Positions 11,701 through 14,700 of a stretch of DNA of 64,000 bases are shown here, piece by piece. Each line of letters opens with the position of its first letter. Position 1 is the first letter of the stretch. The position numbers were made by a program, and so were the translations under genes. The notes under the pieces are model-generated. The model ran no database searches and was not told the origin of the DNA. It saw nothing but the letters and a program-made list of their open reading frames with translations. Source of the stretch: Eublepharis macularius (taxonomy: Eukaryota > Chordata > Lepidosauria > Squamata > Eublepharidae); the NCBI RefSeq assembly GCF_028583425.1, contig NC_072801.1, positions 21,162,001 to 21,226,000 on the forward strand. Direction: 5' to 3'.

Positions 11701-14700
11701 ATAAGTTTTCAAGAGTCAAAACCTTGGAAATCTTGTTGGTCTTTAAGGTGCTACTGACTCGAATCTTGATCTTCTACTGCAGACCACCACACCTACCCAC
11801 TGGAAATGTATGGTAATAATAAGTGAGAGTTGGCAAAGCCAGGCATAATGTTCTTCACAGCAATTGTAGCAGGTTCTTCACCTGTAGCAGCTCAGTGGCT
11901 AGAGCATCCGTGTGGCATGCATAAGGTCCCAGGTTCCATCCCTACCATTTCGAGTTTAATGGACTGGGTAACGGGTAATTTGAAAGACCTCTGCCTTCGG
12001 CCCTGGAGAGCCACTGCCAGAGATTATTCAAGGCTGACCCTGATAGTCTGACTCAGTATTAATTCTTGTGAACTCACTTGTGCAACCTGTCCTGTGCTTG
12101 GGCATGCATGTGAGTCTTCTTTATGCAAGGCATGAATTAATTTGTCAAATTCACTGCCGCAGGATTTGTTGATGCCTGCTGACTTAGATGGTTATTAAAG
12201 GCAACTAGACAATTCATGAAAGAACTGGCTGTATTAGGTGGGGGGGGGAGCTATTACCTTTCTGCTGTGCTTGGGGGGTTCTTCCTGGGGCATCTCTTTG
12301 GCCATTGCAAGAAACAGCATGATGGACTAATGGGGCCTTTGGTTCAATGCTGAATCAGCTCTCAATATTGCCCCTCTTATCTTGCCTTTTAAAGTATATT
12401 TAAAGCACTGTCTAGGCACTTATACATATATTTGTTCATCTTTCACATAGCCTCACCACCTAGTTCACATCTTTCCATTGTTTCTAATTTTGTAATCTTT
12501 TTAAAATTGTTTGTATTGTTCATAGTATGTATGATACTGTTTTTACTACATTGTCTTCTAATTTTGCAATTAGCCTTGAGTCTCATCAAGAAAGGCAGGC
12601 TATCAGCGAAGTTAAAAAAATAGTCTACCAGGTACCATACAAATATCAAAATTGCACACCATCAATAAAATATTACTAAAATTAAAAAAGAATCGAGGAA
12701 CAGCCTAGCAATCTTAATTCCAGCAGCTCTTTTTAAAAAATTACTAATTTAAAATTCTGGTAAAAAGTATGGATTTGGCCTAAGTGATGATAATGATGGC
12801 ACCCGACAGGTCTTTTGCAGGAGGGAGCTTCAGAGACAGCACCGCCTCCCAAAAGGCCCCTCAGTGGTAAGCATCACCTGGGCCGTTTCCAGACGGCTTA
12901 CCTGCCTCCGGAACGTCGCGCCATCTTGCGGCGAAAACGCGAAATATTGCATTTTCTCGCGCAAGTTTTGCGTGACGTCACGCGACGTCACGCAAAACTC
13001 GCGTGAGAAAACGCGATATTTCGTGTTTTCCCCGCAAGATGGCACGATGTTCCGGAGGCAGGTAAGCTGTCTGGAAACGGCCCTAATCTCTGATGATGGG
13101 GCTCCTAGAAAAGGTCTCTGAAATAGATCTTGGCTCCTGAGCAAATGACCACTAGAGATTGCAGGTCACTTGATCCCAGACAGTTTATGGCATATACCAG
13201 CCTTTTCAATCATGCCCGAACCCCCACTTGGCAAACAGTGAAAATGTTTCAGCAGTGGCACGATATGGTGTGGCTTGGTCAGTATACCAGCAGGTGTTTT
13301 CTATACCAGTTTCTGAACACAGGTGGACAGTACTGTGTTAGTCAAACTTGGAGGTGATGAAGGCATGGATAACGCTGGTCAGATCATCTCCTCCCAGAAG
13401 AGGATGCAGCTGGCTTTCCAGTTACATTGCTGAAAGGCACTTCTTGCCTTTCATCTGTTTTGTCTTGTTTGGAAAATGAGGAAATGATTTACTTTGTGTG
13501 CATTTGTTTTTCCCCGTTGCGAAGAAAGTATCAGAGTGGTTGACGGCCCAGGAAGTTTGCCTGTACTTGGATCAACCATCGAAATAGACATATCAACCTT
13601 GTTGGCTATATTTCCAGAAAAAGACAGGGCAGAAGAAATCAAACAGGTAAATTGATGGTTGTTGTGGGTTTTCCGGGCTGTATTGCCGTGGTCTTGGCAT
13701 TTTAGTTCCTGACGTTTCGCCAGCAGCTGTGGCTGGCATCTTCAGAGGTGTAGCACCAAAAGACAGAGATCTCTCAGTGTCACAGTGTGGAAAAGATGTA
13801 GGTCATTTGTATCTACTCAGGAGGGGTGGGGTTGAGCTGAGTCATCCTGTAAGAGTTTCCCAGGGTGTGGAATGCTAATGGCAGGAGGCTTCACTGTATC
13901 CTGAGGAGGTTCTTTTGCATATGGATTGGTACTTGATGTGCTAATCTTCTCTGCAGGGCTATTGTCGGGGATAGAATGTTTTGTTAGCCTGGTGTTTTTC
14001 AGAACTGGAAACCATGCTCTGTTCATTCTTAAGGTTTCTTCTTTCCTGTTGAAGTTTTGCTTATGCTTGTGAATTTCAATGGCTTCCCTGTGCAGTCTGA
14101 CAAAGTAGTTGGAAGTGTTGTCCAGTATTTTGGTGTCCTGGAATAAGATACTGTGCCCTGTTTGAGTTAGGCTATGTTCCGCCACTGCTGATTTTTCAGG
14201 TTGTCCAAGTCTGCAGTGTCTTTCATGTTCTTTTATTCTTGTCTGGATGCTACGCTTTGTGGTCCCGATGTAAACTTGTCCACAGCTGCAGGGTATACGG
14301 TATACTCCTGCAGAGGTGAGGGGGTCTCTACTGTCTTTTGCTGATCGTAGCATCTGTTGTATTTTTCGGGTGGGTCTGAATACTGCTTGAAGGTTATGCT
14401 TTTTCATAAGCTTTCCCATCTGATCAGTAATTCCTTTGATATATGGCAAAAACACTTTTCCTGTAGGAGACTGTTTTTCCTTGGTTGTTTGATTCCTCCT
14501 GGGTTTGATTGCTCTTCGGATTTCATTTCTGGAGTAGCCATTTGCCTGAAGTGCGTGGTTTAGATGATTAATTTCCTCACTGAGAAAGTGCGGCTCACAT
14601 ATCCGTCTTGCACGATCCACTAATGTTTTCATTATGCCTCTTTTATGTCGGGGGTGGTGATTGGAGTTTTTGTGTAAGTACCGATCAGTGTGAGTTGGTT

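Follow-up and report, generated by a model that had tools for sequence, protein, structure and literature searches.

Does the tail of a Penelope-like element (PLE) in Eublepharis macularius carry a hammerhead ribozyme, and does that ribozyme cut its own RNA in living cells? The locus lies in a 64,000-nucleotide stretch of contig NC_072801.1 (positions 21,162,001–21,226,000), here called the window, and window positions are used throughout. The best explanation, to which we give a probability of about three in four as a whole, is a minimal hammerhead without stem III at the pLTR/ORF junction of a GIY-YIG PLE. Self-cleavage is predicted, a probable start codon is built into the core, and the cut RNA would rarely serve as a template for new copies.

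The hammerhead core

Read directly, minus-strand positions 13748–13708 are CCU-CUGAAGA-U-GCCAGC-(CACAGCU)-GCUGGC-GAA-ACGU-C-AGG. The 5′ strand of stem I, CCU (13746–13748), precedes the core CUGAAGA (C3 to A9, 13739–13745), which a 40-nt pattern scan also recovered. The stem II strands GCCAGC (13732–13737) and GCUGGC (13719–13724) were identified by direct reading and a copy survey, and the loop CACAGCU was read between 13732 and 13724. Positions 13711–13718 hold GAA (12–14, 13718–13716), the self-complementary stem III remnant ACGU (13715–13712) and C17 (13711). Scission is predicted between 13711 and 13710 on the minus strand, so that A1.1 and the stem I 3′ strand AGG (13708–13710) form the 5′ end of the predicted 3′ cleavage product. 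CUGANGA, GAA and UH occur in order and stems I and II are present, as in PLE-type minimal hammerheads.

The 40-nt pattern matches with no mismatches at 13708–13747, 24277–24316 and 50500–50539, all on the minus strand, and with two mismatches at 50610–50649 on the plus strand; its mean in 100 shuffles is 0.00. In the plus-strand match C3 is replaced by G and the stem I base beside it is A instead of U, so that its core is not intact. A descriptor scan that required the core, a stem II of 4 bp or more and a stem I of 3 bp found exactly three intact copies in the window and a mean of 0.083 in 60 Markov-resampled windows. The second copy, ribozyme and tail, spans 24223–24349 (minus). The third (50413–50579, minus) has a long tail and is the left half of a head-to-head pair whose right half is the fourth copy (50573–50702, plus), with a short tail and the C3 to G change. 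Across 56 core-spanning copies, stem II has all six pairs in 52 and five of six in 4. The sequence CTCTGAAGATGCC occurs 46,651 times in the 2.24-Gb host genome, and its reversed control 9 times.

A sequence-only reading of this DNA had proposed a hammerhead-like core in the minus-strand tail, and this is borne out: the catalytic boxes are all in order in three identical copies, with none in 100 shuffles. Its order of boxes stands; its division into separate GAAA and ACGU boxes does not, one A being common to both. It had also noted an unpaired U between core and stem II in every copy, with the copies at 24272 and 50494 identical here. The U is present in all four window copies; in the fourth, C3 is mutated. 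The covariance-model check proposed with that reading came out negative, with no Rfam hammerhead match at E ≤ 10 in 13600–13830 and no hammerhead family at gathering thresholds in the whole window. The Rfam models probably miss the motif because they need a stem III.

Minimal PLE hammerheads have a self-complementary remnant of stem III. A minimal type I hammerhead without helix III and associated with PLEs was reportedly described by Cervera and de la Pena in 2014 and by Lunse in 2017, and such hammerheads are said, in the title of Lunse, Weinberg and Breaker (2017), to act as dimers. As far as these sources were available, the present motif resembles theirs (Cervera 2014, Lunse 2017) in lacking helix III, in its link to a PLE and in the self-complementary remnant. 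The anatomy belongs to an already known kind of element and ribozyme. The earlier expectation of a PLE hammerhead with a very short stem III agrees with this layout, and a published lizard PLE ribozyme cleaves in vitro.

That ribozyme belongs to the Poseidon element PAc of Anolis carolinensis, in which the hammerhead lies at the pLTR-ORF junction and the ORF begins at stem II (PMC11167929). In vitro it cleaved only when the protein of the element was there; C3G and G8C each abolish cleavage, and the double mutant is partly rescued (PMC11167929). Nearest-neighbour energies for the window motif, which omit the tertiary core, count against the hammerhead fold: at −11.9 kcal/mol it is less stable than another hairpin (−15.0 kcal/mol), in which the pairing of CUGA to UCAG spans the cut. 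A more stable alternative hairpin fits with the PAc ribozyme cutting only when protein is present. A dimer formed through ACGU, as the sequence-only reading had suggested, is possible.

The host element and the probable start codon in the core

The minus-strand frame adjoining the motif (13817–15007, 396 codons, with the motif 3′ of it) is the 3′ part of a PLE ORF, comprising the end of the reverse transcriptase and a GIY-YIG endonuclease. The copy is 5′-truncated, and its match to longer copies stops near 15127. The RVT_1 match (E=4.5e-6, 27 bits) lies slightly below the cut-off of 29.6, the GIY-YIG motif was recognised by eye, and T5orf172 matches weakly (E=0.049). DNA copies of this ORF part are 87–99% identical elsewhere in the sampled genome pieces. 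The element is therefore called a PLE, on the reverse transcriptase end and the C-terminal GIY-YIG motif, and the PLE context given by the sequence-only reading holds on the same evidence. Tails at the pLTR/ORF junction, inverted partner copies and target-site duplications, the last read in L001, L017 and L052 only, are also those of a PLE. Locus L005 was considered as a long copy and rejected, being 5′-truncated as well. A search for relatives in viral contigs and genome contigs confirmed none.

The tail (13654–13739, minus) would comprise the first ~86 nt of the ORF and ends at CACAACAACCA. By analogy with PAc, CACAACAACCA may be a short reverse-transcription start site. In head-to-head PLE pairs (window 50413–50702; L001, L017, L021) one outer end is short, at CACAACAACCA, and the other is ~33 nt longer; target-site duplications flank some of these short/long pairs. 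The short and long outer ends fit two reverse-transcription start sites, one per DNA strand. Pairs of this form are known in outline for rotifer and lizard PLEs, as far as the sources were available (PMC3846280, PMC11167929). The rotifer Penelope copies likewise have head-to-head pLTRs, one with a tail extension, and the available text of that paper gives 0 matches for 'hammerhead' or 'ribozyme' (PMC3846280). Two further observations concern copies in the sampled genome. In L049 (G000:C1, about 1356540) a deletion removes the ribozyme core and the sequence resumes at AAACGTCAGG. Copies L001–L008 lie in mirror image in G000:C1:1325400-1377677, a palindromic duplication or an assembly artefact.

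In the canonical hammerhead core A9 runs straight into stem II. Here U 13738 intervenes, and A9, this U and G10.1 spell AUG (13737–13739, minus), a probable start codon. A start codon built into the ribozyme would explain the unpaired U; the sequence-only reading had seen the odd U correctly and overlooked its place in an AUG. From this AUG the frame stays open through the tail end in each of the four window copies and in 54 of the 56 that were sampled. ATG is likewise present in 54 of 56 core-spanning copies, a count that is not independent because the sample was mostly seeded on this sequence. The AUG in the core is probably the start codon actually used, and the 'tail' would be the ORF start within the 3′ copy of the pLTR-ORF junction.

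The gecko element and PAc share a hammerhead at the pLTR-ORF junction, an ORF start at stem II, a cut site 26 nt beyond that start, tails in a short and a long form, and a GIY-YIG endonuclease. Judged from the published text rather than sequence, the PAc ORF start at stem II after G8 is consistent with the same extra base. With the predicted cut after GUC placed 26 nt past the AUG, self-cleavage would detach the start codon from its ORF, and the remaining RNA would begin AGGAAC; cutting would take an RNA out of translation. An AUG within the core suggests why control of cutting is needed.

Copy ends at the predicted cleavage site

Reverse transcription of a cut RNA from the tail site predicts copies that begin at A1.1 (AGGAAC...). 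Places where all three bases before a given start differ from the element were counted in the 2.24-Gb genome, with one base on each side of the cut and a poly(A) scan as controls. All three preceding bases are replaced in 227 copies at A1.1, 91 one base upstream and 101 one base downstream. A rough binomial test against equal thirds gives p ~2e-18, a guide value only, as the counts include duplicated and related places. The first 24 listed cut-site rows, which form 21 loci (L052, L076–L095), were read, as were 20 stretches near the top of each control list. Junctions make up 20 of 21 cut-site loci, 15 of 20 at −1 and 19 of 20 at +1; each of the remainder has an intact ribozyme with a small indel or duplication. 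Among the control junctions, several (for example L104, L105, L118, L120, L136 and L141) are pairs from the cut site shifted by filler or a shared base. There is a position-specific excess of junctions at A1.1.

The 227 places correspond to ~0.5% of the 46,103 copies with CAGGAACTACAATGCCAAGACC, and the true number is probably higher because a flank that matches the element at any of the three bases escapes the pattern. Of the four copies in the window, none starts at the cut. Among 100 places listed for a tail pattern, of which 88 were inspected, many by comparison by eye, one (L052) does. The idea that most insertions end at the cut was rejected, since most run through it. Micro-insertions more often start 16–56 nt upstream of the AUG, in samples of which the first was seeded on the ribozyme, and uncut RNA is therefore the main template, as for PAc in vitro. 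In the micro-insertions L065, L020, L073 and window 50413–50702, each arm has its 5′ end at about −48 relative to the AUG, and this position is perhaps the element's transcript start.

Copy ends at the predicted cut base suggest that the RNA cuts itself in living cells. We infer that these genomic ends arise by hammerhead cleavage, and we read them as cut RNA serving as a template in vivo, rarely, at ~0.5%. Under this proposal nearly all genomic insertions would derive from uncut RNA, and the small fraction (order of 0.5%) with a 5′ end at A1.1 would show that the germ line contains cut RNA, which at times acts as a template. For PAc, no RNA-seq ends fall at the cut, uncut RNA is the dominant template, and insertion in vitro proceeds without need for the ribozyme (PMC11167929); the gecko element, in contrast, has a rare, position-specific genomic footprint. 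R2 elements offer a parallel in the part of the source available, a retrotransposon ribozyme of the HDV-like class whose cleavage site is the 5′ junction of insertions (PMC3774820). The R2 ribozyme is of another class and cuts at the element's 5′ junction, whereas here the cut marks ~0.5% of copies. The genome-wide footprint test is new here; no genomic footprint of this sort was found in the literature searched, which did not extend to Cervera 2014 and Lunse 2017. With the junction test, genomic insertions in their tens of thousands become a record of where RNAs began, and the question can therefore be asked in any PLE-bearing genome without cells.

Sequences joined at the predicted cut

The 21 cut-site loci comprise 11 with an inverted arm, 9 without and one intact copy with a small duplication (L079). 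The nine junctions without an inverted arm join the cut to A-runs, U6-like, element-internal or unassigned sequence. Poly(A) or A-run ends occur in five of the nine, L080, L083, L084, L090 and L093. L088 carries U6-like sequence (RF00026, model positions 1–37, 22.3 bits, E=0.0035, under the gathering score of 44), and its join keeps A1.1, which replaces the base beside the common GGAAC. In L086 the joined sequence comes from within the PLE and shows microhomology, L076 is a rearranged PLE, and the sequence joined in L078 is the unassigned one. Upstream of the join, L080 resembles L093 at 75% over ~136 nt, and L090 resembles a stretch of L015 at 86%; repeated 3′ ends, probably those of LINEs, are therefore likely. 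L080, L083 and L093 carry three different tail variants.

The poly(A) scan required poly(A) followed by CAATGCCAAGACC within 16 nt, which covers ends from ~8 bases before to 8 after the cut, and gave 32 merged places among the matches listed (100 of 179). In 21 of these 32, among the matches listed, poly(A) runs directly into (A)GGAAC, a join that A1.1 and G1.2 would produce alike. All 21 are junctions on reading, and none has a ribozyme directly upstream. Many have AATAAA shortly before the A-run, as in polyadenylated RNA 3′ ends, and L153 has an uncut PLE copy ~40 nt further up. Ten of the remaining 11 were read as well. L096, L097, L098, L101 and L161 are intact copies with mutations; among the matches listed, L100 and L102 join poly(A) to CGTC, L099 is a head-to-head join there, L160 is a join at GGAAC with filler and L162 a join further downstream. 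Direct joins elsewhere within 8 bases of the cut number 2 or 3 among the matches listed.

Among the poly(A) joins, upstream families and tail variants each number at least three. The joins may be template jumps or insertions into genomic A-runs, and in both cases the PLE starts at the cut. Two sets of upstream 3′ ends recur at the cut: a LINE-like family (L145, L152, L155, L156, L159) and a second family (L147, L148, L151, L154). Some places may therefore be copies of one composite and not separate events. The two recurring families could identify the LINEs whose RNAs are captured.

In 18 of 36 inverted pairs the partner arm ends no more than 2 nt from A1.1; in 7 it passes the cut and in 11 it falls short, a tally that counts the L089 pair again as L130 and measures L082 and L094 at filler although both arms start at A1.1. 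The partner arms are not directly pattern-selected, and several control places are partners of cut-site places. In L095 an inverted tail precedes two units, both of which start exactly at A1.1, the first passing the long tail into further sequence. L104 is a head-to-head pair with both arms at A1.1 and a 26-nt palindromic filler between them.

The main rival, which we consider improbable, is an internal transcription start: A1.1 would be +1 in a TCA(+1)GG that resembles an initiator, the RNAs would be capped and the ribozyme would be irrelevant to their ends. Any RNA starting at A1.1 would yield identical junctions, the footprint being one of DNA alone, and TCAGG resembles the pyrimidine-A initiator. 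The match with the predicted scission base would then be coincidence. Reverse transcription of capped RNA often adds an extra G, yet G precedes A1.1 in only 7 of 100 cut-site rows listed (52 T, 41 A; the pattern excludes C), and no poly(A)-G-AGGAAC occurs among the matches listed (100 of 179).

Equally improbable is a decayed relic, with the core as inherited baggage that is kept solely for the N-terminus encoded by its bases. In favour of a relic, the copies sampled are young and similar (89–100%), and PAc insertion in vitro is independent of the ribozyme (PMC11167929); the position-specific junction excess at A1.1 and the activity of the PAc ribozyme argue the other way. A template-switch or breakage hotspot, with ends that reflect a reverse-transcriptase stop or microhomology and no RNA 5′ end, is slightly less probable still: some junctions have bases common to the partner (L077, L086, L088, L118, L120) and the −1 and +1 classes of 91 and 101 are above zero, but the predicted fold would put a stem II stop ~8 nt further on and a stem I stop 3 nt earlier, and microhomology with poly(A) should draw joins to the AAA of GAAACG, whereas the matches listed hold 21 (A)GGAAC and 2 CGTC joins.

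Under the preferred reading, hammerhead cleavage, reverse transcription would run off the 5′ end of the cut RNA, and the run-off product would be joined to the poly(A) end of another RNA or to a second inverted cDNA. A more speculative extension, which we doubt more than we believe, makes cleavage and translation mutually exclusive. The element's own protein would trigger folding, and the cut would remove the AUG and convert the message into a capless 5′-OH template. End-to-end joining of the copied cut RNAs to poly(A) RNAs of the host or of LINEs would then give chimeric retrocopies marked poly(A)-AGGAAC.

Two further features were recorded in the window. Part of another reverse transcriptase ORF, probably of a LINE, lies at 16419–17438 on the plus strand (RVT_1, 3.4e-11). 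A 5S rRNA-like sequence at 58013–58129 on the plus strand (RF00001, 43.3 bits) is perhaps a 5S-derived SINE.
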